This document shows, in pieces, positions 21,303 to 44,831 of a DNA stretch of 44,831 nucleotides. The translations under genes were made by a program, and so were the position numbers. Each line of letters starts with the position of its first letter. Position 1 is the stretch's first letter. The notes beneath the pieces are model-generated. The model saw only the letters and a list, made by a program, of their open reading frames with translations. It was not told the origin of the DNA and made no database searches. The stretch lies in assembly GCA_022567555.1 (NCBI GenBank), contig JADFGT010000004.1, positions 18,392 through 63,222 on the forward strand. The letters are read 5' to 3'. This DNA is from Armatimonadota bacterium. Lineage in GTDB: Bacteria > Armatimonadota > Fimbriimonadia > Fimbriimonadales > ATM1.

Positions 21303-21335
21303 CGTCCTGACTCGCACTCAGGCACGCTTCCTACA

Positions 21336-22934: not shown

Positions 22935-22992
22935 GAAGTTCCACAGGGAGAGACAAGCACAGGGACGTAAAGGCAGGAAGGAGGGTAGCAAG

Positions 22993-24685: not shown

Positions 24686-24691
24686 CTGTCC

Positions 24692-24739: not shown

Positions 24740-24807
24740 TTGGCAATTCAGGCCGTGCAGGGAGCCGAGGGGAAGCGGCTCAAGCATAAGCAAGACACAC
24801 AACGGAA

Positions 24808-25689: not shown

Positions 25690-25985
25690 AGCCTTCTTCC
25701 AAACGTAGTACGGTTCCCCGCGAAGGGAGTACCGTACTTGGTAACCGGAATATCGTGGATTATTACATGTTGTATTCAAACTGTGGTAAACCGCGCTGAA
25801 AGTACCCACTCTGACCCGTTGGGAAACTACTCGACCGTTGTCTCCTTTTGCTTCGCGGCCTGCCTGGGTCTGGGATTTGCCTTTGGCGACTCCGAAGCCG
25901 CCTCCTCAAATTTCAGAGGCCGCAGTGACGCAGGCGATATTCGCACGTGTGTGCCTGGGAGAGCCGACCAGTCGAACCACTCTGA

Positions 25986-26234
25986 TTATCCAGGTCTCTC
26001 AACATTTCCCAGGCGCTGCCGCGCACGCCAATCGCGCATATACCATCGGTGATACTCTCGGCTGCGCCGACCACGCCTGCGTTCCCGTACTCTGTCCCGA
26101 TTCCTCAGGTTGTACTCTCGTGACGCCTTTCTCCAGCACCCCATACAGGCAGAGCGGTAGCCGCTTGGAGCGCATATATCAGGGTAGAATTCCGTGAGCG
26201 GCAACTCCCTGCCGCACTTTGTACACCGCTTCAT
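25986..26234 (-). CDS. Small Zn-ribbon protein of mobile elements
   Basis: 82 aa from ATG 26234 (MKRCTKCGRELPLTEFYPD); an ATG at 26270 is also possible, and neither has a clear ribosome binding site. Two Cys pairs (CTKC and CMGC, 20 residues apart) form a likely zinc site. A basic, Arg-rich C-terminal helix follows. The pattern CxxC, elxxFy, gyrsxCxxC is common in small phage proteins related to HNH or recombination-endonuclease-VII-type nucleases, but the catalytic HNH part is absent here. Perhaps DNA-binding. A relic of a second copy lies at 24544-24685. Confidence 0.6.
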   Translation of the reverse strand: MKRCTKCGRELPLTEFYPDICAPSGYRSACMGCWRKASREYNLRNRDRVRERRRGRRSREYHRWYMRDWRARQRLGNVERPG

Positions 26235-26381
26235 ATCTTCAAGAAAACCCTCACGTTTGTGTGTGTCCATGTGTTCTGTGTGGAATCCATCCGAAACGTC
26301 CGTCTCTGTCGTCTACAGAGGAGCAGGAACGGCATTCTCGGGGTCATTTAGAGTCGCCTATACGTCAGCGTGGACCCCTGT

Positions 26382-27611
26382 TCACGCCGACCATGAGCAC
26401 TGGCCGTCTGCGGACCCCGCAATGTGAAAGAGAGTCGTCCTAAGATGCTTCCCGGCGGGTATCAAGACTCGATTCCTAATGAGCCACTGAATCCCCTTGC
26501 CTGCTTGCTTTTGAGACACACCGCACCACACGGAAGCAAACCGCCACGAGAACGGCGAGGGGTCGCCGGGAGTGTGTATCCACTTGCAGCCGAGCAGGAA
26601 TCGGAACCCCTCACACACCATTTGCGCGGACCACGGCGCATCCCCAGGAAGTTGGACCTCCGGCACGGGAGCAAGCGGTAGGACGCGTGCCTCCACCAGC
26701 AGCCGAATCCCCCACACGGCCAATTCAGGCCTTCGGTCGCGTAATCGGACTGTGTGTCCATACGCTTGCGCCGCTCTCACCTCCGCGAGCGTGTAGAACT
26801 CCACTCCTTCTCGTCGGTGAAAGTCGTGGTACACGATCACGCCGTTGTCGCCGCGATAGAGACTCCCCGATGGGTTCTTTTCCTGATGACCGGGGAGGAC
26901 ACAGCAGAAGGCATGACCGAGCCTGCGTTCTTTGATTCCGAGAACAGGCGCGACCTTCCACACGATTTCCTCTGTGCTGTAGAGGGAGCGCAGTGCGTCG
27001 CCTGTGATGGTTCCTGTCTCGCATACTCCGGAACGGGAAGCGAGTAATGAATATTCTCTTACTTGCTTCCGTGTCCATGTATCACTGCTACCGGTCCCCA
27101 CATCGGGTAAATAAGCATGCGGCAGATCATCAATCTCCACCTGCAAAGGTGTTAGGAAGTCGCTCCAGGTGTATCGTTCCCCATTCGGATGGATACTCGG
27201 CGGGAGGATCGCCAATTGACCGTACAGCAAGTCCCCCCAATCGAACTTCTTGACCCGGACTCGCTCCGAGCCGGTGACCTGATAGAACGAGCGGAACCCC
27301 CGAGGTGTAATAACCTGCGGTGACGGAGGAACTGGAAGAGAGAAATTCTCCGAGTAATCCACGTCCACTGCGATAAGATTCCCCGATGCCTTTCCCGTGA
27401 TTACCGCGACTCCGCAGTTCGGGTCCCTGGCGAACCAGTCCCTTATTTCACGCTCGTTTGTCGGCTTGTCGCGCCTTGCGGTCCAGCTGCCGTTCGTGAG
27501 TAGTTTCGTGTACGGATGCTTCGTTCCAGGCTTCATAGGAACGAGTCTCCAGCCTCGGTTCGCAAGCAACGTCAGTTCTACAATCTGGTCGGTCTTGGTG
27601 GTAGTCCTCAC
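26382..27611 (-). CDS. Bifunctional primase/polymerase (Prim-Pol) of the element
   Basis: 409 aa. The N-terminal Prim-Pol domain has the catalytic Asp pair D83/D85 (LIAVDVDYSENF) and the PPSIHPNGERYTW motif with H141. A degenerate zinc-ribbon-like middle follows (FCCVLPGHQEKNPSGSLYR, then YHDFHRR), as in many phage and plasmid primases. The C-terminus (SVWCGVSQKQAGKGIQWLI) looks like a winged helix. The role is priming and possibly extending DNA on the excised element. It overlaps the nuclease gene upstream by 4 bp (ATGA type), hence translational coupling. No helicase domain is seen, so a host helicase would be needed. Confidence 0.88.
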   Translation of the reverse strand: MRTTTKTDQIVELTLLANRGWRLVPMKPGTKHPYTKLLTNGSWTARRDKPTNEREIRDWFARDPNCGVAVITGKASGNLIAVDVDYSENFSLPVPPSPQVITPRGFRSFYQVTGSERVRVKKFDWGDLLYGQLAILPPSIHPNGERYTWSDFLTPLQVEIDDLPHAYLPDVGTGSSDTWTRKQVREYSLLASRSGVCETGTITGDALRSLYSTEEIVWKVAPVLGIKERRLGHAFCCVLPGHQEKNPSGSLYRGDNGVIVYHDFHRREGVEFYTLAEVRAAQAYGHTVRLRDRRPELAVWGIRLLVEARVLPLAPVPEVQLPGDAPWSAQMVCEGFRFLLGCKWIHTPGDPSPFSWRFASVWCGVSQKQAGKGIQWLIRNRVLIPAGKHLRTTLFHIAGSADGQCSWSA

Positions 27612-28111
27612 GGCTTCTCACCCCTAAGCCGTCTCTGAGTCTCGAACCAATGACTCGGGTCTATCGCCTGTCCTGCTCCGCCGAGTACGCGGACCAATTC
27701 ATCTTGCGAAATCGCACAGGGTTCGTATCCAACTCGGCCGAACCACATTTCGTCAGAGTTATCTGGAGACGTTCCACTCAGGCGAAGCGTGAAGACGCCT
27801 GGAAACCGGATCGGACGCTTGCCACGTAGAGTGTCGAATTGCTCCCCGTCCACACGCCGGAGCGCCTGATCCAGCAAATGTAACAGTTCCTGCTGAAACC
27901 GGTTTACTCTTCCGCTGCGGGTCTTGACTTCCACAGGGAAAAGGGTCGCGTCGCCGAAGCGAAATACGCAGGCGTCAATGTCCGAAATGTAGATTGAAAA
28001 GTCCCGAGAGTCGAGCAGCGGGTGGTTTCTTGTCCACGCCGACCAGGGAGTTTCCTCCCCAAACACCCGCTTACGTGTTCGGCTCCCGGACGCTGTGTAA
28101 GACTTATCCAA
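27608..28111 (-). CDS. PD-(D/E)XK-type nuclease
   Basis: 167 aa from TTG 28111, which follows AAAGGTGA at 6 nt; a GTG at 28141 would add ten residues. The core shows the fold's signature: D46 in ISDIDACVF, then a beta hairpin and E61-x-K63 in FPVEVKTRSG. This is the D...ExK active site of Holliday-junction-resolvase and restriction-like nucleases. The rest has no family I recognise. Coupled to the primase, it is probably part of DNA replication or processing of the element. Confidence 0.65.
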   Translation of the reverse strand: MDKSYTASGSRTRKRVFGEETPWSAWTRNHPLLDSRDFSIYISDIDACVFRFGDATLFPVEVKTRSGRVNRFQQELLHLLDQALRRVDGEQFDTLRGKRPIRFPGVFTLRLSGTSPDNSDEMWFGRVGYEPCAISQDELVRVLGGAGQAIDPSHWFETQRRLRGEKP

Positions 28112-28230
28112 TTGTGAATCACCTTTCTGGCGGCACGCCACCCCTCAAGTCCCGGCAGGTGCCGCAGTGAGATAGGAGCGGCTTATCGCCACCCCTTCAC
28201 AACTACATCAGTGGGGATTTGCGAGAAATC

Positions 28231-28262
28231 GGGGGTTTTGGGGGTATTTGCGGGGGACGGGG
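28231..28262 (+). other. G-quadruplex-forming motif
   Basis: Four G runs (28231-28235, 28240-28244, 28252-28256, 28259-28262) with loops of 4, 7 and 2 bases. It fits the G3+N1-7 rule. It sits between the sigma-like gene and the nuclease gene, on the non-coding strand of that block, and the mRNA would carry the C-rich form. Confidence 0.8.
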
Positions 28263-28278
28263 TGACGTTTTCACGTCA
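28263..28278 (+). promoter_or_regulatory. Perfect inverted repeat next to the G-quadruplex motif
   Basis: TGACGT-TTTC-ACGTCA, 6-bp arms. A candidate protein-binding site or RNA hairpin just downstream of the sigma-like gene. Confidence 0.5.
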
Positions 28279-28307
28279 ACGGCCTCCCCTGTGTCCGGAA
28301 GTGAGAC

Positions 28308-29465
28308 CTATCGCCTTGCCAGTTCAACCAGCGCGTCCCTCACCGGCATCGGCTCATCGAAGGCTCGGAAGATGAGGTCCTTCGCCTTAACCTTGGCGAG
28401 CATCACCTCTACCTCGTCATCGGTCAATCCCTTGGCTAAGCGCGGCTCGCGGTGGACTACTATGCGCAGGCGTCGCTTCGCGTCCTCATGCAAGTCTGCC
28501 TGAGCCTTATCGCATACCAGTCGAAAGATAGCGGTCTCGTCGTTGGGGTCCTGGCCTCTCTCTCTAAGGTCAATTGCGGCGGCCAGTGCGCGCCAGGAAT
28601 ACTTCTTGTTCCAACTGCGAAACAATGGAACGAAGACGACGTAGTACCTGTCCTGCTGGGTGTCCCAGGCCTCCCAAGGTTCCCGATTCTCGCTCAGCGC
28701 ATATAGACGGTCGCTGTCCCGTTCGCACACGAGAAATCCCTTTCCCTTCAGTTCGTGAAACTTCTTGAGGAGTTCGTCCCGGTCGAGGCGTAGCCGCCTC
28801 TGAATCGTCAGTCTCGTTCGGTCCCACCTTATCTCTTTGACAACGGCTTTCTGCGATTCACTCAATTCCCGCCACGCCTTGCTTTCAAAATACCAAAGCA
28901 TGGCGTTGGCAATCGCTTGTGTAAATCGTTCACAAACGTCAAACAAGTGCTCATCGAAATCTTGCGGGTCACCGCCTCCGAATGTGATGAAAAAGCCGTA
29001 ACCCCTCCGGCGCCTTACAAGATACATCATCGTATCTATCCGGATGAATTCTCTGAGAATAGGGTATTTCACCTCAAATTGCCACCAACCAATCTTTCGG
29101 GGCAATCCGCCTATGGGTCGCTCGCCTTCGTAAAGCCAAACGTATCGGCGTTTGGCCGCGATCTTGCGGCGCTCTTGCAGCGCAAAGTCCAGTCCGGCAA
29201 GAATCTTCGCGCGGATCTCGTGCTCTTGCTGAAAGAACTCTTGGCACGCGTACTTGACCGTCATGCTGGCCCAGGTAGTGAGCATCCCCTTGCGTTCGTC
29301 AAACGGGTTCTTGAGCGCGCGCAGAATTGCAATGCCGTGCACGTCCTCTTTATCATCTTTGGCAAGGATTCTGCCAAACTTGTACATGGGGACGTACTTT
29401 AGTGCGTGGTCTATCGCCTCCAGGTGGCTCTGTCGGAGTTCTGGCGGCATATCTCTACCGTTCAT
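28308..29465 (-). CDS. Sigma-70 region-2-like protein of the element
   Basis: 385 aa from ATG 29465; a GTG at 29492 is open upstream. Residues about 30-75 match the pattern of sigma region 2. An acidic EDV is followed by a helix, then NPFDERKG and MLTTWASMTVKYACQEFFQQE, like the FDP-x-rG-x-F-x-twa signature that binds core RNA polymerase and melts the -10 box. A long helical rest follows with several charged, paired segments (ESQKAVVKEIRWDRTRLTI reads like a region-4 or helix-turn-helix candidate). I infer a divergent sigma factor or a phage-type regulator. It is first in the minus-strand block and could switch on the genes behind it. Confidence 0.5.
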   Translation of the reverse strand: MNGRDMPPELRQSHLEAIDHALKYVPMYKFGRILAKDDKEDVHGIAILRALKNPFDERKGMLTTWASMTVKYACQEFFQQEHEIRAKILAGLDFALQERRKIAAKRRYVWLYEGERPIGGLPRKIGWWQFEVKYPILREFIRIDTMMYLVRRRRGYGFFITFGGGDPQDFDEHLFDVCERFTQAIANAMLWYFESKAWRELSESQKAVVKEIRWDRTRLTIQRRLRLDRDELLKKFHELKGKGFLVCERDSDRLYALSENREPWEAWDTQQDRYYVVFVPLFRSWNKKYSWRALAAAIDLRERGQDPNDETAIFRLVCDKAQADLHEDAKRRLRIVVHREPRLAKGLTDDEVEVMLAKVKAKDLIFRAFDEPMPVRDALVELARR

Positions 29466-29710
29466 GGCGCTTCCGGTTCCATGGTGACCCACAGGGCTAG
29501 AGGCTCCCGTTCGGCGTATCGGGAGCCTCGTCTATCTTCCATCACAGGGGACCGGAATCCTGCTCGGAGGACAGAGTGCGGCCGGGTTCTCCCGCGCACG
29601 AGGCCGGTCCGTGGGTCGTAGGGTGCCATACCGGTGTAACCTCCTGTTTCCGACGTAAGACCCCTCCTGCAAACCCCTCGGTCTGTCCTAACACCGCCTC
29701 TAATTCTCAC

Positions 29711-29785
29711 CGTATTTCAGCACCAAAGTAGCGGCCGCTAAGCCGAGGGTTTCCGTCCGTGTTTCAGCATCAAAGTCACGGCCGC
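29711..29785 (+). repeat. Two iteron-like 28-bp repeats
   Basis: 29711-29738 and 29758-29785 are the same length with about four to five mismatches. Both read cgt-ttcag-ca-caaagt and end in cggccgc. Confidence 0.6.
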
Positions 29786-30157
29786 GGAAACAGCCGTATG
29801 AGGGACCGTAAACCAGGTACGAATCTACGGCCGTAAGACTTCCCGGTTTTCCCGGTCTACGTGTGCGCGAAACGGCGGCCTCCGTCGGCGCATGACCGGC
29901 GAATCCCCTACGTGTGCGGAAACCCCGAATCGGCCTCCAAGTCGCTATCCTTTGAGAGATCCCCCGTCCCCCGTGGGGGATGGTGTGGGGGCCTCGAAAG
30001 ACCGTCTCCCCGGGTAGACCTTTCAACCCCTGCAGGACGCCGGCCGCAATACCCCTTCTGCACCGCTACAGGCGGCCTTTCCCTGCGTTTTATTGAGTTA
30101 CCCACTTTCCAGAACACCACCCTGACCGTTTGAGGGCCAGTTTGAGGCCTTCAGCCT

Positions 30158-30178
30158 GCACAAACGCCGTGTTTGTGC
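30158..30178 (+). other. Perfect hairpin, 8-bp stem
   Basis: GCACAAAC-GCCGT-GTTTGTGC. No U-run follows, so a terminator is unlikely; it is more likely an origin or protein-binding structure. Confidence 0.5.
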
Positions 30179-30503
30179 TTACCTGAGAGATCAGGGAGAG
30201 GCGCCTCCCGCGCGTATGCATATATTTCAGAAATGGGACTCCTTGTTTACTAACACAATCGAGGGTCGTTTTTAGAAATCTAATACAAGACTGGGACCCC
30301 TATTCGTCGGTCCGTATTGAGGGAAGCGGGACTCCTCTCCCGCGAGAGATCGAGGCCGTGGATGGACCCCCCCAGGATAACACACCAATCTCGGAATTTT
30401 ATCCTCCTCTTCGCTTTCGTCTCCATTCTGCTATCATTCGGACACAATACAGGACAATCAGAATTTATGCAGACTGAGTGCGCGTTGCGCAAAGGAGGAA
30501 TCG

Positions 30504-31019
30504 GTGCGACGAATTCGATATTTAGTGGCGATGAGTCTCGACGGGTACATCGCCGGGCCGCACGGGGAGGCCGACTGGATCATCACGGATCCAGAAATTG
30601 ACTTCGGTGACATCTATGCACAGTTCGACACGATTCTCGTAGGCCGCAGGACTTTCGAGCTCATGGTACGGACCGGGCGCGCGACGATGCCAGGAATGAA
30701 GACCTTTGTGTTCTCCACCACTCTACGCCAACCGGACTATCCGGACGTCACCGTCGTTGGAGAGAACACCGAGCAGACGGTGGCCGCGATGCGTGCAGCG
30801 TCGGGCAAGGACATTTGGCTGTTTGGTGGAGGCAATCTGTTTCGTAGCCTTCTTGAGGCTCGCCTGGTGGATGCTGTGGAAGTCGCGGTTATTCCGGTCT
30901 TGTTAGGCAGGGGGATCTCGCAACTGCCGCCTCCTTCGAAGCAGACCACGCTACAATTGACTGGGCACCGGATTTACAAGACGGGCATTGTCAATCTGGA
31001 GTACGCCGTTAGCACATAG
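30504..31019 (+). CDS. Dihydrofolate-reductase-like (RibD C-terminal domain) protein
   Basis: 171 aa; the GTG start at 30504 follows AAAGGAGG at about 6 nt. The fold shows RRIRYLVAMSLDGYIAG at the start, the NADPH-site GRRTFELM and KDIWLFGGGNLFRSLLEA, and a DAVEVAVIPVLLGRG segment: the family of YyaP/YwjB-type NADPH reductases related to DHFR and RibD. Substrate unknown. Such proteins sometimes give antifolate tolerance, but it is not a classic FolA. It stands alone between two copies of a short repeat (about 30330-30370 and 31105-31140), like a cargo cassette. Confidence 0.9.
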   Translation: MRRIRYLVAMSLDGYIAGPHGEADWIITDPEIDFGDIYAQFDTILVGRRTFELMVRTGRATMPGMKTFVFSTTLRQPDYPDVTVVGENTEQTVAAMRAASGKDIWLFGGGNLFRSLLEARLVDAVEVAVIPVLLGRGISQLPPPSKQTTLQLTGHRIYKTGIVNLEYAVST

Positions 31020-31142
31020 GCTGCCTAATTACGGTATGCAGCTGAGTCCGTAGGCGTGCGTGTGCAAGTATGATTTCGGCGGTTCCAGCGACACTCCAGG
31101 CCTGTTTCCCGCGAGGGATCGAGGCCGTGGGGGGACTCCACA

Positions 31143-31250
31143 GTAGGGGACCTCTACCCCGGGGGGTCAAAAGGAGGGTCCGCAACTAACACAGGAAAAC
31201 ATATCGGAATAGTCGGCACGTCTCCCTCGTAGCGGACCCCGGCCGGGGGG
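31143..31250 (+). repeat. Intergenic repeat, copy A
   Basis: About 108 bp that match 34483-34591 at roughly three of four bases by eye, beginning gtagggg and ending cgtctccctcgta and a ccggcc-gggggg run. A CTAAC half-site lies at 31186-31190. No gene falls in 31020-31299. Confidence 0.65.
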
Positions 31251-31299
31251 ATGGCGCCGGGGATCTGATTTCGGAGGCAGGGTAGGCTCCCATTTACAC

Positions 31300-32112
31300 A
31301 TGCTTCGATTGGGAACGTCGTCGTGGACTGCTCAAGGATGGGAGAGAGCCTTCTACCCGCCTGAAACACCGCAGCGTGACTACCTCCGGCACTACGCGAC
31401 AAAATTCGATACAGTAGAGATAGACGCGACATTTTACGCGATCCCGTCTCGAACGACTGTTGACGGATGGAGAACCAAAACCCCTCCCAATTTCACGTTT
31501 GCCGCGAAGGTCCCGAAGGTCATCACTCACGAAAAGATGCTTGTTGACTGCGAAAGGGAACTCGGAGTATTCATAGAAGTCATGTCCAGACTCGGCACGA
31601 AACTCGGTCCGCTCCTGTTCCAGTTCCGCTACTTCCGCAAAGGAGAATTGGAACTGTCCGAGTTTTTGGATCGCCTTTGTCCTGTCCTGGATCATGTACC
31701 GGAAGGGGTGCGGGTTGCGGTGGAGGTACGGAACAAGAAGTGGCTTGCGCCGGAGTTATTGACGGCACTCTCGGAACGGAATATGGCGCTTGCTCTGGTT
31801 GACCATCCATACATGCCTTATGCTTCTGAGTACCTGGAGCGCGGGAAGGAACTCATCACAGCGGACTTCACCTTCATTCGACTAATCGGACACCGTCAAA
31901 AGACCGAGCAGAAACTGGCTGATGAACTTGGCGAAGTCAGTTTCGAGCGCAGCGTCATAGATCGCTCACGTGAGTTAGCCTCCTGGTCCGAACTGATTCG
32001 CTCTTTAGACCATGACCGCTTTGCGCTGTTCGCTTACGTCAACAACCACTACTCCGGCTTCGCGCCGGACGACATCCGGAGGCTGATGGACCTGGTGAAA
32101 AGCTCCGAATGA
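31300..32112 (+). CDS. DUF72 (YecE-like) family protein
   Basis: 270 aa, TIM-barrel-like. The N-terminus has the family pattern LRLGTSSWTAQGWERAFYP, then LRHYATKFDTVEIDATFYA and the FAAKVPKVITHEK segment. The biochemical role of this widespread family is not settled. The start ATG at 31300 lacks a good ribosome binding site. It may be co-transcribed with the oxidase gene 118 bp downstream. It lies in the segment bounded by repeat copies A and B. Confidence 0.9.
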   Translation: MLRLGTSSWTAQGWERAFYPPETPQRDYLRHYATKFDTVEIDATFYAIPSRTTVDGWRTKTPPNFTFAAKVPKVITHEKMLVDCERELGVFIEVMSRLGTKLGPLLFQFRYFRKGELELSEFLDRLCPVLDHVPEGVRVAVEVRNKKWLAPELLTALSERNMALALVDHPYMPYASEYLERGKELITADFTFIRLIGHRQKTEQKLADELGEVSFERSVIDRSRELASWSELIRSLDHDRFALFAYVNNHYSGFAPDDIRRLMDLVKSSE

Positions 32113-32230
32113 CGGCACACACTCAGACGTGGCCGCCGCGTTGCTTCGAGGAGATGTCATGTGAACAGAATGACCAGGTGCCGCAGGATCGGAAGTATAT
32201 CGCTCGGGCTCCGGATTCGCTTGAACCAAA

Positions 32231-33388
32231 ATGAACGACCCACCAGAGGAAGCTTCGCGTAAGAGTACTCCAGAACAATCTGGAAGTAGACCCGACCCTG
32301 ACCGCATGGATCGGGCCGTCTGTCTTGCAGATTACGAGATTCTTGCTCGCAAGTGTCTCCAACATATGGCCTACGAATACGTCGTCGGAGGAGCAGCGGA
32401 TGAGATCACCCTACAGGCTAATCGACAGGCATTCGACCGAATCAGGTTGGAGCAGCGCGTTCTTGTGGATGTTTCTAAAATTGATACGCGTCTGACACTA
32501 TTTGGACAGCAACTGGAGTTTCCAATTGTGCTGGCACCGACTGCGTTCCACTGCCTCATCCAAACTGAGGGTGAATTGGCGACCGTGCGCGGAGCCAATG
32601 CCGCCGAAATCACGCTCGTGGTTAGCTCCTTGGCGAATGTCACGATTGAAGCAATTGCTGCCGAGGCCACACGGCCGCTTTGGTTCCAGCTCTATGTGCA
32701 ACCGGACCGTGGATTCACGCGTGCTCTCGTACAGCGAGCAGAAGCAGCGGGTTATCAAACTATTTGCGTGACGGTGGATACTCCGGTATTTGGGGCACGA
32801 AACCGCGAAGCTCGTGCACAGTTGAAGTTTCCGACAGGCATGGAACCTGTAAACTTGAGGGGCCTGGAGCTTCAGCACGGTACCGGATGGATAGGATCGG
32901 GAGTGGGGGACATCTATTCACCCGTATTAGATGCTGCGCTCACGTGGAAGGACATCGAGTGGTTGCGTTCTTTTGTGCAAATACCGGTTGTACTGAAAGG
33001 GATTACGGTAGCCGAGGATGCTGAAATCGCTGTCAAGGCGGGAGTTGACGGACTGATTGTGTCAAACCACGGGGCGCGTAATCTCGACACCTCGCCGGCG
33101 ACTATAGATACATTGCCGCGGGTCGTGGCCACAGTCGCCGGTCGCATTCCGGTCATGATGGACGGAGGTGTGCGCCGTGGCACCGACGTATTGAAGGCGC
33201 TGGCGCTAGGAGCGGATGCAGTACAAATTGGACGGCCATATCTTTTCGGACTCGCCGTGAACGGGTCTGACGGCGTCAAGCAGGTAGTGGACATCCTTCG
33301 GAGAGAGTTCGAAATGGCAATGGCGCTGACAGGAAGAACTTCGCTCGCCGAAATTGACGAGTCCGTTCTATGGCGTGATACCATCTGA
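32231..33388 (+). CDS. FMN-dependent alpha-hydroxyacid oxidase/dehydrogenase
   Basis: 385 aa TIM-barrel flavoprotein of the glycolate/lactate oxidase family, oxidising 2-hydroxyacids to 2-oxoacids. It shows FPIVLAPTAF (FMN site), WFQLYVQPDRG, the active-site SNHGARNLD with the catalytic His and a substrate-binding Arg, and the phosphate-binding MDGGVRRGTDVLKALALGAD. The usual SNHGGRQLDG reads SNHGARNLDTS, a small change near the active site. The first roughly 25 residues are polar and extra. Substrate is not predictable; lactate-type enzymes are the nearest by pattern. It could be an oxidase or a quinone-linked dehydrogenase. Confidence 0.92.
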   Translation: MNDPPEEASRKSTPEQSGSRPDPDRMDRAVCLADYEILARKCLQHMAYEYVVGGAADEITLQANRQAFDRIRLEQRVLVDVSKIDTRLTLFGQQLEFPIVLAPTAFHCLIQTEGELATVRGANAAEITLVVSSLANVTIEAIAAEATRPLWFQLYVQPDRGFTRALVQRAEAAGYQTICVTVDTPVFGARNREARAQLKFPTGMEPVNLRGLELQHGTGWIGSGVGDIYSPVLDAALTWKDIEWLRSFVQIPVVLKGITVAEDAEIAVKAGVDGLIVSNHGARNLDTSPATIDTLPRVVATVAGRIPVMMDGGVRRGTDVLKALALGADAVQIGRPYLFGLAVNGSDGVKQVVDILRREFEMAMALTGRTSLAEIDESVLWRDTI

Positions 33389-33738
33389 CCGGCTGGATTG
33401 GATATACAAGTGCGGCTTCCGGTTGTGGCGAGCCTACGCACACGGAAAGCTGAGATCGGTCTCCCAGTAGCTATTCCACGAAAAAAACCCCGCCGGCCGG
33501 GAGGGTGGTGTCTGTCACGACCTGCGGGGCGATCTCAAGAGATTTGGATCTCAGCACCCATTGTATCTCGATCGGGGAAGGCCGTCAACTGCGAAATGTA
33601 CCAGGATCAAGTTGAAAGAGCGAGACTAAGACGGTGCAGGTCGTCACGGCCGCCGCCGAGTGAGACGCTGGGATAGCATAGACAGAACGACTGCCGGGAT
33701 CTCCTGGCAGTCGTCTCTTCGAAAGGAGGTCGGGACAG
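33389..33738. other. Gene-free 350-bp stretch between convergent genes
   Basis: It contains a 9-bp perfect hairpin at 33687-33714 (ACGACTGCC/GGCAGTCGT), probably a terminator for one or both directions though without a strong U-run. On the minus strand a GC-rich stem is followed by seven T (33481-33512), a candidate terminator for the PEP-CTERM gene. Confidence 0.4.
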
Positions 33739-34323
33739 TTACGTCCGTCGCCTGCGGCGTGCCAACAGCGCCACTCCGGCTCCGAGTACCAGAAGTGTTG
33801 CCGGTTCCGGGACCAAAGTGCGGCTGAACTGAACAACCCGCCATGGCTGTTGAGGATTACCCGTCGCAAGAATGTAGCGCGTCTGATAGTGCCACTCGTC
33901 GAGCAGTAAGGTGCCTGTCAAGTCGGCTCGGTAGGACATATTGTGTACTGACCCGTCAACAGGCAAGTCGCTGCTGTCAGGAATCGGATCCGCCGGGTTC
34001 GCCAGTTCGGCGGATTCCAGCAACACAAAACCGTCGCGGTGGCCTGCATGAACCCAGCCGGGAGGAAGGCTAAGATTGGTCACTGCCGCAGGCCGCATAG
34101 GTGAAATTTTCAGGTAGTAGAAATCCAGGAAGGCAGGGTCACCATTTGCAGGATCGTAGCCAGAGGTATCAATCTCAATTGAAACGTCAAATAGGCTTCC
34201 GCCTGCGTCCGTTACAGTAACCTCGTAGGACGTACCAAATGGGTCTGTATCGAACAGCAGGAATGCCTCGCTGGGAACGGAACCTGCGGCCACCGCCAGT
34301 CCACAGATGATCAAGCGCAACAT
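33739..34323 (-). CDS. PEP-CTERM sorting-domain protein
   Basis: 194 aa from ATG 34323, which follows AAAGGAGA at 8 nt. The signal peptide ends near PSEAFLL. A beta-rich mature domain follows. The C-terminus is the full tripartite PEP-CTERM signal: the VPEPATL motif, a short hydrophobic helix and RRRRRT. Such proteins are cut and sorted by an exosortase (EpsH/XrtA), which is not in the window, so the element relies on the host for sorting. Role of the mature part unknown; a surface or matrix protein is typical. Confidence 0.9.
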   Translation of the reverse strand: MLRLIICGLAVAAGSVPSEAFLLFDTDPFGTSYEVTVTDAGGSLFDVSIEIDTSGYDPANGDPAFLDFYYLKISPMRPAAVTNLSLPPGWVHAGHRDGFVLLESAELANPADPIPDSSDLPVDGSVHNMSYRADLTGTLLLDEWHYQTRYILATGNPQQPWRVVQFSRTLVPEPATLLVLGAGVALLARRRRRT

Positions 34324-34482
34324 GTCAACAATCTCCTTTCCAACAAATCTTACTTCTGAATCGAACCGCGCAACAGCCAGCGACTGTGAAAGTCTGAACA
34401 TTATATTCGATATCCACCATGGATTCCCGAGAAGCGAAAAAACCTGTCAATAGTACGGGGCTGCCTAAGTTGACCTCCCGAA

Positions 34483-34591
34483 GTAGGGGTTCCTCACCCC
34501 CAGAGGTCAATAGGAGGGTCGGTAACTAACAGCAAAAGGATATTGGCATCCTCGGCGCGTCTCCCTCGTATCGAACCCCCGGCCTGGGGGG
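34483..34591 (+). repeat. Intergenic repeat, copy B
   Basis: Diverged partner of 31143-31250 in the same orientation. A CTAAC half-site is at 34526-34530. The two copies bound the DUF72, oxidase and PEP-CTERM segment. Confidence 0.65.
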
Positions 34592-34610
34592 TGCGTACCC
34601 CACGTCGCTG

Positions 34611-34877
34611 TCACGCCTTACGGGTAGGCGACGTGCTTCTCTTGTGCGCCTTCCGCCTCGCTCGCTTCCGCCAGGTCACCTGGAGCCTGACGCTTCCCCC
34701 CAATGCGCTAACGAGGCGCTCCAGGACCGCCAGGGAGATACCCTCTCTCCCCGACTCCAGATTGGCGATCCGGGAGCGATTCACCCCAAGGCGATCCGCA
34801 AGATCGGCCTGGGTCCACCCGAGCGCCTTCCGCCTCTCGTAAACCGTCTGTCGAAGGGTCTTCTGCCGGTCAATCAG
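34611..34877 (-). CDS. XRE-family helix-turn-helix regulator with a damaged or unusual start
   Basis: About 88 aa. A clear Cro/CI-type HTH is present: LRQTVYERRKALGWTQADLA, then RLGVNRSRIANLESG, followed by LERLVSALGGSVRLQVTW. This C-terminal strand is often seen in antitoxin-type XRE proteins (HigA- or HipB-like). No toxin partner is adjacent. No ATG, GTG or TTG is available before the HTH; only CTG 34877 or ATT 34874 are in frame after a TAA at 34887-34889. An ATG at 34893-34891 lies just upstream in another frame, and removing one T from the TTTT run would join it to the HTH frame (MLTFLLIDRQKT). So the gene is either recently frameshifted or uses a rare start. A palindrome (34886-34901) covers that ATG. 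Confidence 0.65.
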   Translation of the reverse strand: MIDRQKTLRQTVYERRKALGWTQADLADRLGVNRSRIANLESGREGISLAVLERLVSALGGSVRLQVTWRKRARRKAHKRSTSPTRKA

Positions 34878-34885
34878 GAGAAAAG

Positions 34886-34901
34886 GTTAGCATTTTCTAA
34901 C
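34886..34901 (+). promoter_or_regulatory. Operator-like palindrome
   Basis: GTTAG-CATTTT-CTAAC, perfect 5-bp arms, between the XRE gene start and the -35 box of the outward promoter 7 bp away. A natural binding site for the XRE protein, controlling both itself and the promoter. Confidence 0.6.
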
Positions 34902-34907
34902 AAACAC

Positions 34908-34936
34908 TTGACATTCGCCGTAATTTGGCCTATTAT
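34908..34936 (+). promoter_or_regulatory. Consensus-like sigma-70 promoter pointing out of the element
   Basis: TTGACA (34908-34913), a spacer of exactly 17 bp, then TATTAT (34931-34936). RNA would start near 34943 and run across the attachment site. In the circular form it would then reach the integrase GTG, about 150 nt away. Confidence 0.8.
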
Positions 34937-34984
34937 GTATAGGCGTTTTCGCAGGTTCAAGACCCACCGCGCCAGGTTCAAACG

Positions 34985-35051
34985 GCTCAGTTGGCAGAGC
35001 ACTACAATGACACTGTAGGGGTCGCTGGTTCAAGTCCAGTACCGCCCACCA
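34985..35051 (+). repeat. attR: 67-bp repeat of tRNA-Val 3' part
   Basis: Identical to 19061-19127. The 5' acceptor strand is missing (the bases before it are GTTCAAACG), so it cannot fold as a tRNA. The stretch 35052-35298 after it has no gene I trust. Confidence 0.97.
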
Positions 35052-37088: not shown

Positions 37089-37162
37089 AAACCACAAACC
37101 ACAACCTACAAACTCCCCTCGGCTTGACACTTGGATGCAGACGGCGCAATGATGGGCCCGTC

Positions 37163-38782
37163 ATGTTGAGCCTACTGGTTGCCTGCCTTCTGACCCCCCA
37201 GCCCGCCGACCTCGTCATCGAAAACGCCCGAATCTGGAGCGACGGGCGGGTCGGCTTCGCCGAGTTTGCGGCCGTGCGCGACGGCCGGTTCGTTTACGTG
37301 GGCCCGAAAAGAGAGGAGTTCATCGGAGAGGGAACGGAGCGGGTGAACGCCAGGGGGCGGGTCGTCCTGCCCGGGCTGATTGACTCGCACGTTCACATGA
37401 TGGGCGGCGGCGCCAGCCTCACGCAACTGTATTTGCGCGACGCAAAGGACAAACCCGACTTCATCCGACTCGTCGAGGAATGGGCCGATGGTCTGCCGGC
37501 GGGCAAGTGGGTGCTGGGCGGGAGGTGGTCGGTCGAAAGTTGGGCCGTCCGCGAGCAACCGACCAAGGAGTGGGTTGACCCTGTGACGGGCGACCGGCCG
37601 CTCTATCTGTCGCGGATGGACGGCCACTCGGCGCTCGTGAACTCGGCGGCGCTGCGCCTGGCGGGGATCACGAAGGATGGTCCACCGGACCCGGAGGGCG
37701 GCGTGATTGACCGCGACGCTGAGACCGGTGAGCCCACCGGCATCCTGCGCGAGTCCGCGATGGGGATCGTTTCGCGGCACATCCCTGCGACCACCTTCGA
37801 CGACAGGGTGGAGGCGTTGAAGCGGGCGATGGAGGAGGCGAACCGGAACGGCGTGACGGCGGTCAGCGACATCCCGGGCCTGGGCAGCCTGCCTGTCTAT
37901 GAACGTCTGGCGGAGTCGGGCGATCTCACCGTGCGCTTCTTCCTTTATCCGACAGCAGGCGACTGGCAATCGGCGGCGGAAACCGTTAAAGGTTTCAAGG
38001 CGAAGAAAGGCTGGGTCGAGGTCAAGGGTTTCAAGGCGTTTGTGGACGGCAGTTTGGGCTCGCGGACCGCATTCATGCGCGAGCCTTTTTTCGGCAACGA
38101 GCCGGGGCGCGAGAACTGGCGCGGCCTCCTGACGGAAGGAGTTGAAGACGGACGGTTTGCCCGCAACGCCGCCGCCGCCCGCGACGCGGGGATGCAGACA
38201 ATCGTGCACGCCATAGGAGACGAGGCGAACCATATTCTTTTGAACACCCTCGCAGACGTTTATCAAGACATCGCCAAGGCGCGCTGCCGCAGCGAGCACG
38301 CCCAGCACCTGTTGCCCGAAGATATCTTTCGTTTCGGCGAACTCGGACTTATCGCCTCGATGCAGCCTTATCACAAGGCGGACGACGGGCGGTACGCAGA
38401 GGATTACATAGGCGCGGAAAGGTGCAGATCGAGTTACGCGTTCAAGTCGCTTCTGAACGCGGGCGCGGTATTGGCGTTCGGTTCCGACTGGCCGGTCGTC
38501 TCCATCAATCCTTTCTTGGGGATAGAGGCGGCGGTTACGGGCCGCACGCTCGACGGGAAGCTCTGGCAGACGCAGGAGAACATCAGCGTGGGAGAGGCGC
38601 TTCGGTGCTATACGTCTCGCGGGGCGTATGCGGCGTTCGCCGAGGACGAGATAGGCAAAATCGCGCCCGGATTCCGCGCTGACTTCGTCATCCTGAACCG
38701 TTCGCCGTTTGATGCGAACCCGCAATGGTCGGAGATACGCCCGACGGCGGTGTACGTCGAGGGAAAGCTGGTGTTTCCGTAG
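37163..38782 (+). CDS. YtcJ-type metal-dependent amidohydrolase
   Basis: 539 aa from ATG 37163 (frame open to 37124). It hydrolyses an amide or imide of unknown identity. Amidohydrolase-3 family: DLVIENARIW start, metal-binding DSHVHMMGGG, LYLSRMDGHSALVNSAAL, later His in VHAIGDEANH, and the metal Asp in FGSDWPVVSINP. Near the N-terminus LLVAC resembles a lipobox, but the segment before it is only five residues, so export is uncertain. TTGACA at 37124-37129 may be its -35. The divergent TetR may regulate it. Confidence 0.9.
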   Translation: MLSLLVACLLTPQPADLVIENARIWSDGRVGFAEFAAVRDGRFVYVGPKREEFIGEGTERVNARGRVVLPGLIDSHVHMMGGGASLTQLYLRDAKDKPDFIRLVEEWADGLPAGKWVLGGRWSVESWAVREQPTKEWVDPVTGDRPLYLSRMDGHSALVNSAALRLAGITKDGPPDPEGGVIDRDAETGEPTGILRESAMGIVSRHIPATTFDDRVEALKRAMEEANRNGVTAVSDIPGLGSLPVYERLAESGDLTVRFFLYPTAGDWQSAAETVKGFKAKKGWVEVKGFKAFVDGSLGSRTAFMREPFFGNEPGRENWRGLLTEGVEDGRFARNAAAARDAGMQTIVHAIGDEANHILLNTLADVYQDIAKARCRSEHAQHLLPEDIFRFGELGLIASMQPYHKADDGRYAEDYIGAERCRSSYAFKSLLNAGAVLAFGSDWPVVSINPFLGIEAAVTGRTLDGKLWQTQENISVGEALRCYTSRGAYAAFAEDEIGKIAPGFRADFVILNRSPFDANPQWSEIRPTAVYVEGKLVFP

Positions 38783-38924
38783 ATCTCCGGTCAGATTCGG
38801 AACGACCGGCCCCGCATCAAGAAGGACAAGGGTCCGCAGGGGCCGAAACCTGCGATAATCCTGAGTTGCTGGGCGGGCCCTGCTAAGGGTCGCGGCCGGT
38901 GCCTGGACGGTGCAAGGGAAGATC

Positions 38925-41075
38925 ATGTACGCGGCGATTCTGCTAATGGTGCTGGCCGCGCAAGGGCCGGCCGACCTGAAGGCCGACGAGAGGCTTTCGG
39001 CGAACGTCACGGTGCGCGCCGACGCCGAGATGGTAGGCGACGTGATCGGAAGGATGTCCGATGCGCTGGGTGTTCGGCTGAGGACGTCCTCCGAAATCGA
39101 GCAGGACCTTATCGTTTTGTTCGCGCAGGAGCGGCCGGCGCATGAGGTGCTGTCCGTCATCGCGGAGCACTTTGAGTGGGAGTGGCGGAAAGCGGAAGAG
39201 GGTTATCGGCTTGTCCAGACATCCGAAGCGAAGAGAGAGGAAGAGCGGCGGCTTCGCGAGTTGATTCTCGAGCCTTACCTAAAGATCGGCCAGTCGGCGA
39301 AGAAAGCCCTCGAAGAAGGCGAGTCCGACAGGGAGAGACTGCTCAAACGTTGGGGCGAGATCCAAAAGAGTTTGAGCGAATTGCCAGGATATGATGAAAT
39401 GCAAGGTCGGCCTCCGGAGCTCGCGGTGCGTGCCGCGCTCGACCGGGAAAAGCGAAGCTTGGTGATCAGGGTCAGTTCCAAGTGGCGGCTCGTTAGCACG
39501 GTTTTGGCGGAGATGTCCGATGACGAGTGGTGGGCACTGGATCGCGACTTCAAACTCGTCTATTCAACGAATCCGACTCGATGGCAGCGACCCATAAGCC
39601 GCAAGGCGTTGCCCGCCGCCCGGCAGTTGATCCTTGACTTGGCGGCAGAGGCTCGCGGCGGCGCGAACAACCCGGACCCGCTGATGCCGATCGGCCTCGA
39701 TCACTTGCCTGAGGACGTCGCCGCGGTTCGCGTCGTACTTGAGCGTTCCGGATTCCCGACGCGCTCTCGCCGGGATGCGGTCTATCTGAGCGTCCAGGTC
39801 GCGCTGTTGGACGCGAACGGAGATGCGCTTGCCGTTGAAACCGTGGGCGCTGAAGCCCTGAACGCGGGCGGCACTGAAGCCGTGCAGACGCAGAAGCCGC
39901 CGAAGCACGCAAAGTTGGATGAGCCGCTGCGTCCCTCGGCCGGGCTTCTCCGGGCCAACCGGCCTTCGCTCGTTGTCAACGAAGCGACCCTGGCGAGCGA
40001 GCAGTCCCGAGTTGAATATCTCCGTCTTGGGTCGAAGGTTGACGTTCTATCGGACCTGGGGCGGCTGCTGAACCAGGTTGCGGCTTCAGCTGGAATCTGC
40101 GTGATAGCGGACCGGTACGACAACCTTGGCCGCGCGATTGAGCCCATCCAAACGCGCACGCTCGGGACGGCGCTGGGACACTTGGCGCAGCAAGGTAGAT
40201 ACGAATGGAGTTTCGACGGCACGTGGGCGCGCTTTCGCACTGAGGGATGGCCGCTCGCTCGCGCCTCGACCGTGCCGCGAAAGACGCTCTATGCGTTTCG
40301 AGACAAGGTGATGGGCGACGACGGGTACGCACTCGACGATCTGGCGTCGCTCGCCCTCGCCGTGACCGACCGGCAGGCGTGCGCACCCTCTCTCTGTCGG
40401 TTGTGGGCGGGCTACTGGAGGCTTTTCAGCGTCGAGGACGGCGGCGCGACCCTATACCTCTTGCGCATGTGGGCTGAGTTGACGGCTTCGCAGAAGGCAG
40501 CGCTCTTGAGTCGCCAGCCGTTGTCCTTCTGGTCGCTGTCGCCGCTTGCGCGGAGGCAGCTGGAGGCGACGATCTATCGTCTCTCTCCCGACCGGACATA
40601 CATCTACGGTGGAGGGACCTGGTTGGGGCGAGCGTTGGACCGGCCGTCCAATTCGTGGTACATGGAGCGGCAGTTTCGAGGACAGTGGGGGAAGGATATC
40701 ACCCAACTTCTGCCGGACGGGCTCCCGCAGGATGGGGAGTTTCGGCTGTCGGCGACCGCCGTTCTCCCCAAGGTTTTCATGAAGGACAATTGGGGGAACC
40801 TTTACCTCGCAGGACCGGGCACAGTGGCTGAGTGGCGTGTCTTCCGCGAACGTTTCGGGGACACACCGGTTTCATATACATACCGCGCCGGCCAAGGAGT
40901 AGGGATTGCGTTCACGTTCGAACTTGGCGATTCCCTTTCTCTGGTAGATCCTGTATGGACCTCGCATCCGCTTCCCGGGTCCAAGTTCGGGGAGGTGACG
41001 ACTTTGCCTGCAGAGATGCAGAAGCAAATTGAAAAGGAATTGTCGGAAATGAGAACCTGGAGCCCGCCGCCTTGA
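38925..41075 (+). CDS. Unknown exported protein with STN-like N-terminal domain
   Basis: 716 aa from ATG 38925, after AAGGGAAGATC. A signal-like start (MYAAILLMVLAAQGPADL) is followed at residues about 20-95 by a secretin/TonB short N-terminal-like fold: VTVRADAEMVGDVIGRMSDA, then HEVLSVIAEHFEWEWRKAEE, like STN modules that dock receptors. A coiled-coil-prone stretch (REEERRLRELILEPYLKIGQ) and a large remainder without known motifs follow. A second STN-like unit may lie near VDVLSDLGRLLNQVAASAG. There is no secretin pore or TonB barrel. It may be a lineage-specific envelope protein. Confidence 0.6.
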   Translation: MYAAILLMVLAAQGPADLKADERLSANVTVRADAEMVGDVIGRMSDALGVRLRTSSEIEQDLIVLFAQERPAHEVLSVIAEHFEWEWRKAEEGYRLVQTSEAKREEERRLRELILEPYLKIGQSAKKALEEGESDRERLLKRWGEIQKSLSELPGYDEMQGRPPELAVRAALDREKRSLVIRVSSKWRLVSTVLAEMSDDEWWALDRDFKLVYSTNPTRWQRPISRKALPAARQLILDLAAEARGGANNPDPLMPIGLDHLPEDVAAVRVVLERSGFPTRSRRDAVYLSVQVALLDANGDALAVETVGAEALNAGGTEAVQTQKPPKHAKLDEPLRPSAGLLRANRPSLVVNEATLASEQSRVEYLRLGSKVDVLSDLGRLLNQVAASAGICVIADRYDNLGRAIEPIQTRTLGTALGHLAQQGRYEWSFDGTWARFRTEGWPLARASTVPRKTLYAFRDKVMGDDGYALDDLASLALAVTDRQACAPSLCRLWAGYWRLFSVEDGGATLYLLRMWAELTASQKAALLSRQPLSFWSLSPLARRQLEATIYRLSPDRTYIYGGGTWLGRALDRPSNSWYMERQFRGQWGKDITQLLPDGLPQDGEFRLSATAVLPKVFMKDNWGNLYLAGPGTVAEWRVFRERFGDTPVSYTYRAGQGVGIAFTFELGDSLSLVDPVWTSHPLPGSKFGEVTTLPAEMQKQIEKELSEMRTWSPPP

Positions 41076-41134: not shown

Positions 41135-41284
41135 TGGTTGTGGCGGGGGGGGAACCACCTTCCAAAGTCGGTGCACTCCAGGCTTATGCGATTGCAGCCT
41201 GCATTCTTATCCGGCCGCGCGGGTCGCCGGTGGGCGGGTTGCCGCGCGGCCGGCCTGATTGAGTCTCGACTCGGTTGCCGCAGG
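41135..41284 (-). pseudogene. ssrA: Diverged second copy of the tmRNA 3' half
   Basis: About 150 bp that align with the 3' 153 bp of the intact tmRNA gene, including the encoded CCA end, the TCCAAAGTCGGtGCACTCC block and the CCGCGCGG stem-loop. The T loop is broken (the TTCGATTC core is lost) and no tag frame or 5' end is present. It is in the same orientation as ssrA with the porin gene between, as expected of a displaced 3' end after an insertion in ssrA. Confidence 0.8.
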
Positions 41285-41339
41285 TCCTGCTTTGGTGCGA
41301 GCGCGGACGTTCGGCGCGCTATCGTCGCGCGGGGCCGGA

Positions 41340-42524
41340 CTATGACTTGAAGTACCAGCCTCCCATCAGATAACCGAACGTCAGGTTGCCCACGTTGCCG
41401 CCTTGAACGCTATTGACAAAGGAGCCCGGCATGAAGAGGCTGAAGCCGGCGTCGAGATACCAGTCGTCTCCGCCATTGAAGCGCCCTCGAATATCCCACT
41501 CGGAGCCGACGTTTCGCCCTGAGGCGCCGGACGGGTCAATGAACTTCGCTTGGCCTCCAGCGCCGTACCAGGCGTCTCGCATATCGTACAGCCGGAACGT
41601 GTGGCAGGAAGTGTCGAACTCGAACGGACCCGGCGGGTCCCACTCCAGGCCGGCAGCGTAGTGCCTGACGTTGCGCAGGCCTTGAAGGTCGGCGTAGCCA
41701 TACTTGTCATGGTTGGTGGGATACAGGTTGTCGAAGGTGTGCGTGCCTCCGCCCCCCCCGGATGCCCAGTTTGTCTCGACGTACCCTCGAAGATTGGGCG
41801 AGAACCACATCCCGACGTTAGCCGAGCCGTGCCACGCCTGCAAGTCGCCGCCCGGCGTCGTGCCGGCCTGTGCGGACAACTCGAGCGTGTGGTCGAATTG
41901 GCGGTGCGTCCCTCGGTCAACGAAGTTGAGCGTGTACACGTTGGTCGAGAGGCCGAACTGCCTGTCCTGCTTGTAGAAGAGGTAGACGTGGTCGCGCTGT
42001 TCGTTTCGGACGCCGATGCCTCCCAGCATGGCGTTCTTCGAGTATTCGCCGTTGGGGGCGATGCCGAGTTTGCCCAAGAAGAAGTCCCATCCTGCGCCCC
42101 GGCCTCCACTTTTCCAGCGGACCGCGTCGAACGTCCGGCCGATATTGTCCCAATCGTTCGGGCCGACCAGTCTCTGGTTATCCACTTTTATGGGCTGCCT
42201 TCCCAAGCGAAACCTTTCCCCCTGATCGTCGGCGTGCGAGAAAAATGCCTCGCGGATGTTGTTTTTCTCGAAGCGGAAGTTTCCGGCCGGTGTCCAGTCG
42301 TGACTGTACGAGTGCTGATAGACGACGCGAACCTTCCATTCGTCCGGAAGTTCTCCTTCAAAGCCGAGGCGGACGCGGTTGTGCAGGCTGGCCGTCACGT
42401 CGGCGAGCCCCTTGTCAAAGTCGAAGTTGACCCGGTGTTCGTACCGGTCGCGAATCTGGACGATAGGTTTCCAATCGCCGAACCCATCGAGGGGCATTGG
42501 TGGGAGAATGATGAACGGAACCAT
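41340..42524 (-). CDS. Alginate-export-like outer-membrane beta barrel
   Basis: 394 aa; ATG 42524 follows AAGGAGGATAGCGCTC. Barrel features: amphipathic strands, GRQPIKVDNQRLVGPNDWDN, which is the alginate-export (AlgE-like, PF13372) signature, and an aromatic C-terminus (GWYFKS). The N-terminal segment MVPFIILPPMPLDGFGDW is too short for a classic signal peptide, so the start may be misplaced or the leader lost. It would export or import an acidic or neutral polysaccharide or other small polar compound. It lies between the two tmRNA-derived segments. Confidence 0.8.
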   Translation of the reverse strand: MVPFIILPPMPLDGFGDWKPIVQIRDRYEHRVNFDFDKGLADVTASLHNRVRLGFEGELPDEWKVRVVYQHSYSHDWTPAGNFRFEKNNIREAFFSHADDQGERFRLGRQPIKVDNQRLVGPNDWDNIGRTFDAVRWKSGGRGAGWDFFLGKLGIAPNGEYSKNAMLGGIGVRNEQRDHVYLFYKQDRQFGLSTNVYTLNFVDRGTHRQFDHTLELSAQAGTTPGGDLQAWHGSANVGMWFSPNLRGYVETNWASGGGGGTHTFDNLYPTNHDKYGYADLQGLRNVRHYAAGLEWDPPGPFEFDTSCHTFRLYDMRDAWYGAGGQAKFIDPSGASGRNVGSEWDIRGRFNGGDDWYLDAGFSLFMPGSFVNSVQGGNVGNLTFGYLMGGWYFKS

Positions 42525-42688
42525 GAGCGCTATCCTCCTTGATCATTGGTTTCAGGTAGTTCACCTGCCGGGGCGTAGGGGCCGCCGAGTCCACGCGGCG
42601 TACCGGACCCCCCGTGTCGGTAGCGTACCCTAAGTTTCGCCATGCTAACGGGGGTTCGGCCGCCGGTCCTGGGCGCCCGGGTATAGGG

Positions 42689-43045
42689 TGGTGGAGGCGG
42701 GGGGAATCGAACCCCCTTCCAAAGTCGGCGCACTCCAGGCTTCTACGAGCATAGCCTGCCTTTATTTCTCGCCGCGCGGATCGCCTGCAGGCGGGCTGCC
42801 GCGCGGCCAGCCTGATTGAATCTCGCCTCGGTCGCCTCAGGCGGTGGCTTCCAAAGGCCAGCCGGATTTGACGGCGTCCTTAGGTGGGCCTACCGGCTCG
42901 GCCTGCCCGGACGGCTGCGCTATTGCTTACGCAGCGTATGCGTAGTTATCCGCAGTTACCTTGTTTGCCGCTTTTTTACGAGGCCAACGGCGTCCTCGGC
43001 TCGCTACCACGGAGTCGAACGGCTCTGTCGAAACCGGTCGCCCCC
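42689..43045 (-). ncRNA. ssrA: Transfer-messenger RNA
   Basis: 357 nt including the encoded CCA. The 5' end GGGGGCGACCGGTTTCGACAG is a classic tmRNA start. The 3' end has the tRNA-like T arm with TTCGATTC and CGCCTCC-A-CCA, which pairs with GGGGGCG. The tag frame reads GCA AAC AAG GTA ACT GCG GAT AAC TAC GCA TAC GCT GCG TAA, giving (A)ANKVTADNYAYAA, with the YAYAA end that fits ClpXP-type recognition. It rescues stalled ribosomes with SmpB, which is not in the window. The stretch 42525-42688 downstream has no gene. Confidence 0.97.
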
Positions 43046-43214: not shown

Positions 43215-43931
43215 ATGATCATGGTGGCCCTTGCGCTGCTCAGCCTCCAGATGCCGTGGAAAGTGGACGAGACTCTCCAGGCGATGCGCGGCGCCTACTC
43301 CGGCCTGGCGGCGATTAGCGGGGTCCTTGAGGAGACCATCGAAACCGATGCCGGCACGAGCAGCGCCCAATGGTCGTTTGCGGCCAGACGGCCCGGAACG
43401 GCGGTTGTGACGTTTGTGGACGAGGGCAAGCCGGTTAGGCGGGCTTACGTGCATGGCGACGAGTACGTACTTTTGCAGGTGGAGAAGGGGGTGGCGCTCA
43501 CCGGCAAGGGCGGCCCCCAGGTCGCGGCGTCACAGGCGCCCGGATTGAACTTCTTCTTCTTTCCGGAACGAATCGGGAGGAGACCGGGCCAACTGTATGA
43601 GAACGTCGCCGTCCGGTGGGCGGGGGAGGAGGTCACGCCGGCAGGCCGCGCGGCGGTTCTGGCGTGGGATGTTTCGCATCTGGCGCCCTCGGCGTCCGCC
43701 GAGCCGGGCGAACCGGTCATCGTTGAGAGACGTGTGCAGGTGCGCCTGTTCGTTTCCACGGATACCGGGCTGGTGCTCGGTCAATGGACGCGCACGGACC
43801 CCGGCGACGGTTCGCCGCCGAGCGTGCGGGCATGGCGTGTGACGGACCTGCGGCTGGACGGCCAAGTTGATGAGACTGCGTTCGCGTTTAAGATTCCTGC
43901 AGGCTATCGCGTCCAGCCGGGCGCCCGTTAG
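43215..43931 (+). CDS. LolA/DUF2092-like exported protein
   Basis: 238 aa. A short hydrophobic start (MIMVALALLSLQ) is followed by LQAMRGAYSGLAAISGVLEE, which is the usual beginning of outer-membrane lipoprotein carrier (LolA) and DUF2092-type folds. Beta strands with ARRPGTAVVTFVDEGKP and YVHGDEYVLLQVE are those of the half-barrel, and VSTDTGLVLGQWTRTDP is the strand-turn that follows. Probably a periplasmic carrier or sensor of lipidated or hydrophobic molecules; its exact role is unknown. The oxidoreductase begins 39 bp downstream. Confidence 0.65.
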   Translation: MIMVALALLSLQMPWKVDETLQAMRGAYSGLAAISGVLEETIETDAGTSSAQWSFAARRPGTAVVTFVDEGKPVRRAYVHGDEYVLLQVEKGVALTGKGGPQVAASQAPGLNFFFFPERIGRRPGQLYENVAVRWAGEEVTPAGRAAVLAWDVSHLAPSASAEPGEPVIVERRVQVRLFVSTDTGLVLGQWTRTDPGDGSPPSVRAWRVTDLRLDGQVDETAFAFKIPAGYRVQPGAR

Positions 43932-43970
43932 ACGGAAGGTGTAGCGCTCGCGCGTGCCGAAGTGGAAGGC

Positions 43971-44831
43971 ATGGCCAAGCGCAAGGTTCGGATCGGCCTT
44001 ATCGGCTATCAGTTCATGGGAAAGGCGCACTCGAACGCGTATCGCCAGGCGCCCCGCTTTTTCGATATGGAGTGGACGCCCGAACTGAAGGTGATCTGCG
44101 GCCGGCACGAAGGGCCGTTGAAGGAGGCCGCCGAGAAGTTCGGCTGGCAGGAAACGGAGACCGACTGGCGGAGAGTGATCGAGCGCGAGGACGTAGACCT
44201 GATTGATGTCTCGACGCCCGGGCATCTGCACGCGCCGATTTCAATTGCGGCGGCTGAAGCGGGGAAGATCGTTTGGTGCGAAAAGCCGCTTGCCAACACT
44301 TTGGACGAAGCGATACAGATGCGCGAGGCAGTGGAAAAGGCCGGTGTGTATCACGCCATCTTTCACAACTATCGCTTCTGCCCGGCGGTCGCTCTGGCGA
44401 AGAGAATGATTGACGAGGGGGCTTTGGGTCAGATATATCATTTCCGGGGCGTTTATTTGCAGGATTGGATCGCTTCGCCGGACTTTCCTTTGGTTTGGCG
44501 GTTGCAGAAAGAGTACGCGGGGTCGGGAGCATTGGGAGACATTGCAGCGCACAGCATTGATTTGGCGCGGTTCTTGGTGGGTGAGATCGAGAACGTATGC
44601 GGCCGGTTGAAAACGTTCGTTGAGGAGCGCCCGATCCTGAAGGAGACTCCAGACATGCTCGGCGGGAAGGTCGCGTATGAGGCGGGTCGAGGGAAAGTAA
44701 CGGTTGACGACGCTGCGGTGTTCATCGCAGAGTTTTCGAACGGCGCAATGGGCACGTTCGAGGCGACCAGGTTTGCAGTTGGACGCAAGAACTACAACCG
44801 TTTTGAAATAAACGGCTCTCGCGGCTCTCTG
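43971..44831 (+). CDS. Gfo/Idh/MocA-family oxidoreductase, truncated by the window
   Basis: The first 287 codons; the frame is open to the last base. NAD(P)-dependent sugar or inositol dehydrogenase type. The Rossmann motif is [12 protein letters not shown] near residue 9, where the second Gly of GxGxxG is replaced (G-Y-Q-F-M-G, common in the family). The catalytic Lys is in CEKPLA; the substrate domain shows HNYRFCPA and [17 protein letters not shown] 43971 was chosen; a GTG three codons upstream is also possible. Substrate not predictable. Confidence 0.93.

Follow-up and report, generated by a model that had tools for sequence, protein, structure and literature searches.

A decayed copy of the 3' part of the tmRNA gene (ssrA), lying beyond a porin gene downstream of the intact ssrA, is probably, though far from certainly, the eroded scar of DNA that inserted long ago at the 3' end of that gene. 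We consider this the likeliest reading because a single event explains why gene and copy share an orientation, why the 3' edge of the copy is exact, and why relatives lack both copy and porin. The locus was examined within a window, by which we mean the whole 44,831-nucleotide stretch that was analysed (positions 18,392 to 63,222 of contig JADFGT010000004.1, from an uncultured Armatimonadota bacterium of the order Fimbriimonadales). The features of the locus, in window coordinates, are as follows.

37124-38782, plus strand: amidohydrolase, a second syntenic anchor, with a 70% homologue across ssrA in the same-family genome G003 (L054)
38910-41075, plus strand: 721-aa ORF beyond the copy, with no Pfam match
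41135-41284, minus strand: decayed ssrA copy, T loop lost, aligning to the last 153 nt of ssrA and unrecognised by Rfam
41340-42524, minus strand: intact 394-aa ORF for an Alginate_exp-type porin (Pfam), between ssrA and the copy
42689-43045, minus strand: intact ssrA (ARAGORN; Rfam), with tag ADNYAYAA and an encoded CCA end at 42689
43215-43931, plus strand: 238-aa ORF between ssrA and the oxidoreductase, with a homologue at the same place in G002
43962-44831, plus strand: GFO/IDH/MocA oxidoreductase running off the window, a syntenic anchor upstream of ssrA in G002, G003 and G004

A preliminary description of this DNA had paired an intact ssrA with a decayed copy of its 3' end, both on the minus strand, and this pairing was borne out by ARAGORN, Rfam and a search of the assembly. 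ARAGORN calls ssrA at 42689-43045 (minus strand), and Rfam RF00023 scores it at 167.2 bits. When the entire 2.95-Mb assembly was searched, 41135-41284 was the sole second ssrA copy found (80% identity to the last 153 nt of ssrA, E 1e-33), the third match being 27 bp of upstream flank. Aligned without gaps, the two are 79% identical over 150 bp, with 118 of the 150 aligned columns identical in register. The copy comprises the 3' part of ssrA only and lies on the same strand as, and downstream of, the intact gene, from which it is separated by 1404 bp (1557 bp start to start). The loss of its T loop, also described beforehand, is evident in the alignment to intact ssrA as a 3-nt gap and a run of C, and an Rfam search of the copy gave no match even at E 10. 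Changes hit conserved columns at the rate expected by chance (18 of the 32 changes, with 69 of the 150 columns conserved), and the copy has most likely decayed without constraint.

The edges of the copy are informative. At the 3' side the alignment reaches the CCA end of ssrA exactly, and beyond that end, as beyond the 5' edge of the copy, no homology was detected between the flanks of the two sequences. The 5' edge falls 150 bp before the ssrA end, further up than the T-loop/junction or anticodon-type subsites, which would count against insertion, although the crossover point may differ from the limits of the shared stretch.

We then compared the locus with those of the same family, where this genome is the only member of its genus among the genomes searched. 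Neither a second ssrA 3' end (2.0-10.2 kb read downstream) nor a porin beside ssrA was present in any of the six same-family genomes with an ssrA match; another family member, G007 (73% complete), gave no ssrA match. Gene order in G003 runs oxidoreductase, ssrA, about 4.5 kb of other genes, amidohydrolase, and the oxidoreductase is likewise near ssrA in G002 and G004. The complete ssrA of G003 (L054 9899-10247) scores 166 bits with Rfam, yet was missed by ARAGORN. An empty site in a close relative is a general criterion for a genomic island at a tmRNA gene; the downstream DNA of the six family members' ssrA genes aligns with neither flank here and offers no alignable empty site. At the relatives' ssrA loci we saw neither a tandem duplication of ssrA without the porin nor the porin in place without the copy.

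Under our preferred reading, DNA would have entered the ssrA 3' end in a Campbell-type insertion, with one crossover falling within some 150 bp that both partners shared; the enzyme would most likely have been a tyrosine integrase carried on the incoming element. Such an insertion would keep one complete ssrA and displace a 3' part to the far edge; all mobility functions would later have disappeared, so that just 1.4 kb and a single porin ORF remain, while the spare ssrA 3' end was free to decay. The preliminary description had likewise placed an island in the ssrA 3' end. This agrees with the layout, with a copy that ends exactly at the ssrA 3' end, and with the lack of both copy and porin at ssrA in the six family members, but the interval is a mere 1.4 kb, it retains no trace of an integrase, and the repeat is far longer than the 22-34 bp found at relatives' ssrA loci. 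We found no integrase or integrase remnant in the 1404-bp interval, where no sizeable ORF other than the porin matches a family, and the four PF00589 matches of the genome all lie outside it, the nearest being that of the tRNA-Val island described below. The preliminary description took the integrase to be gone; none is there now, and its loss would belong to the insertion reading. As for the intact gene having been rebuilt and the old 3' end displaced, the layout fits, but the intact ssrA is not a mosaic and the copy is nearest to the genome's own ssrA.

The interval was said to hold a single porin gene, and indeed just one ORF there carries PF13372 (Alginate_exp; E 1.4e-28, 100.2 bits, above the Pfam cut-off of 25.2). 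AAGGAGG precedes its ATG, and it has no obvious signal peptide. Many Alginate_exp-type relatives (L035-L053, considered together with window 41340-42524) have a very short, partly hydrophobic N-terminus without an evident signal peptide, and several have a stop codon immediately before the ATG; missing signal peptides are odd for an outer-membrane barrel. The ORF is the sole match of its kind in its genome, and two family members, G003 and G004, carry porin relatives on contigs other than their ssrA contigs. Its best relatives are about 37% identical, none exceeding 37% among 291 Armatimonadota genomes (E up to 1e-40); it had no match on viral contigs, and a sequence search (E up to 1) matched no solved structure. 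A tree of 27 porins puts it on a long branch (1.48), placed weakly and apart from the family's other two. With this weak placement and a neighbour-like composition (GC 0.604, GC3 0.782), the porin is unsupported as a clear import, and the present data neither indicate nor contradict that it was imported. The suggestion that it is surviving cargo therefore stands in part: the porin is absent at ssrA in six family members, but its composition is that of the host, and it would have had to arrive with the insert.

To see how often ssrA has been a landing site in the order, we read 87 stretches, 82 of them with a usable ssrA 3' end, covering 0.7-19.6 kb of downstream DNA, such that longer islands would escape. 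The five rows dropped were L231 (its fragments are tRNA genes), L232 (a repeat array), L229 and L230 (no complete ssrA) and L237 (no 3' end). A second ssrA 3' end lies 0.7-2.5 kb downstream in three of the 82 loci (G086, 34 bp at 85%; G061, 23 bp at 100%; G099, 22 bp at 100%), and all three fragments span about the T loop to CCA. Reversed-sequence decoys gave two weak matches in the same 82 loci, against the three real 3'-terminal matches and one internal downstream match. In G086 the order is ssrA, truncated integrase (phrog_1, E 2e-14), Fic gene, fragment; in G061 it is ssrA, Fic gene, fragment, with no integrase seen. One-gene remnants without an integrase therefore do occur at ssrA. By analogy, both the use of ssrA as a landing site in this order, once with a truncated integrase, and the remnant in G061 would favour insertion.

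Several observations accompany this survey. Two genomes of one genus (L180, L192) have a near-identical Fic-domain gene between ssrA and the 3' fragment, with the truncated integrase in one only. L230 (G092) is a contig without a complete ssrA on which two ssrA 3' ends lie some 1 kb from each other. L229 (G085), also without a complete ssrA, has a 142-nt ssrA 3' part at the contig edge and a tyrosine integrase about 3.3 kb on; this part could stem from a second copy, from a break in the contig or from contamination. A literature search for Fimbriimonadales together with genomic island found no paper.

The window also holds a tRNA-Val island of textbook form (19052-35051). It is bounded by an exact 67-bp repeat of the tRNA-Val 3' part, at 19061 and at 34985 (34985-35051); its integrase starts at 19128, directly after the tRNA, and its contents include Prim-Pol, trypsin-like, DUF72 and FMN_dh proteins. 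The other RNA-gene insertion implied by the preliminary description is thus real. The exact repeat implies that long shared stretches occur in this lineage, which by analogy would ease the insertion reading at ssrA. ARAGORN calls another tRNA-Val at 19183-19275 (minus strand), inside the integrase ORF and without Rfam support, which is probably a false call. On the other side, the oxidoreductase has named matches mostly in Armatimonadota, the best being from Fimbriimonadales. The 721-aa protein has 17 matching stretches in this genome, its own included (best paralogue 51%), and weaker matches across the order; its family appears to be a lineage-specific expansion.

The main competitor of the insertion reading is a local partial duplication without any mobile element, in which replication slippage or unequal exchange placed a second 3' half of ssrA a short distance downstream, the porin being already there or arriving separately. 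We regard this as a real but lesser possibility. The copy is nearest to its own genome's ssrA (78.7% identity, against 60.5-66.2% to the six same-family ssrA genes). At the 32 differences between copy and ssrA, the relatives' majority agrees with the intact gene at 27 and with the copy at 3, with 2 ties, a count biased by conserved columns, which any decayed copy would lose. In a tree of the ssrA 3' part the copy groups beside its own ssrA, with a branch of 0.30 for the copy against 0.03; support is weak, however (UFboot 64), and all five constraint trees survive an AU test. Sequence comparison makes an origin within this lineage, from its own ssrA, the most likely one for the copy, as duplication would have it. 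The host-like composition of the porin is also as expected of a duplication, which stays a serious rival because the repeat is as long as 150 bp, the interval measures only 1.4 kb and no trace of an integrase is left. However, tandem copying should extend past the CCA, where no homology was detected, and an exact edge at CCA would be a coincidence. Furthermore, when 150-bp duplicates of similar age were simulated, 0.3-23% of them, depending on the rate, were as unlike as the observed pair, so a simple tandem duplication is disfavoured.

It is improbable that the 3' end of the intact gene is foreign, brought in by the element from a distant donor, and that the copy is the native end. The layout would be as in any ssrA island, and the AU test tolerates the arrangement (p 0.37). 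But the copy is no nearer to the six family members, and the 3' part of the intact gene is as near to them (74.5-81.8%) as its 5' part (71.0-80.3%; for G003, 81.8% in the 3' part and 80.3% in the 5' part), so the intact ssrA does not appear to be a mosaic with a distant 3' end. A foreign 3' end is accordingly unsupported by this two-part comparison and by the tree constraints. More improbable still is a 5'-truncated tmRNA retrocopy, for which reverse transcription would have started at the CCA and stopped after 150 nt, the product being inserted nearby, though this would account for a 3' edge that is exact, a 5' edge that is ragged and the missing integrase.

Returning to the insertion reading, the locus can be set against known ssrA islands. 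The tmRNA gene is given as the most enriched integration target in the Islander account (PMC4383910). Like the tmRNA-gene islands described there, this locus has a complete ssrA and a downstream 3' fragment in the same orientation with an interval between, and the fragment reaches the ssrA 3' end. Unlike them, it has no integrase within or overlapping the interval, only 1.4 kb between the repeats where a length of 2-200 kb is asked for, and a fragment that is 150 bp long and decayed. By two of the filters given in that account, those on integrase and length, the locus would be rejected, and hence not filed as an island. Nearer at hand, the remnants in G086 and G061 likewise retain just one cargo-like gene in the stretch from ssrA to a 3' fragment, with the integrase truncated or absent; they differ in carrying a Fic gene rather than a porin, and T-loop-to-CCA repeats of 34 and 23 bp. 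Such relatives show how these scars can shrink to one gene and a 3' fragment.

In the Dehalococcoides ssrA islands, as described in PMC2764846 and PMC3146451, downstream ssrA 3' repeats also mark inserted segments, many without an integration module (present in 16 of 31). Those islands have conserved 20-bp repeats, a serine recombinase and arrays with rdhA cargo, in contrast to the repeat of about 150 bp and the lack of an integrase here; on these accounts they would represent the same process on a larger scale. What we know of island insertion is left unchanged by the present locus: it would be an ordinary, weathered case of a known and common landing site, and, for an order that has received little study, an example of traffic at the tmRNA gene.
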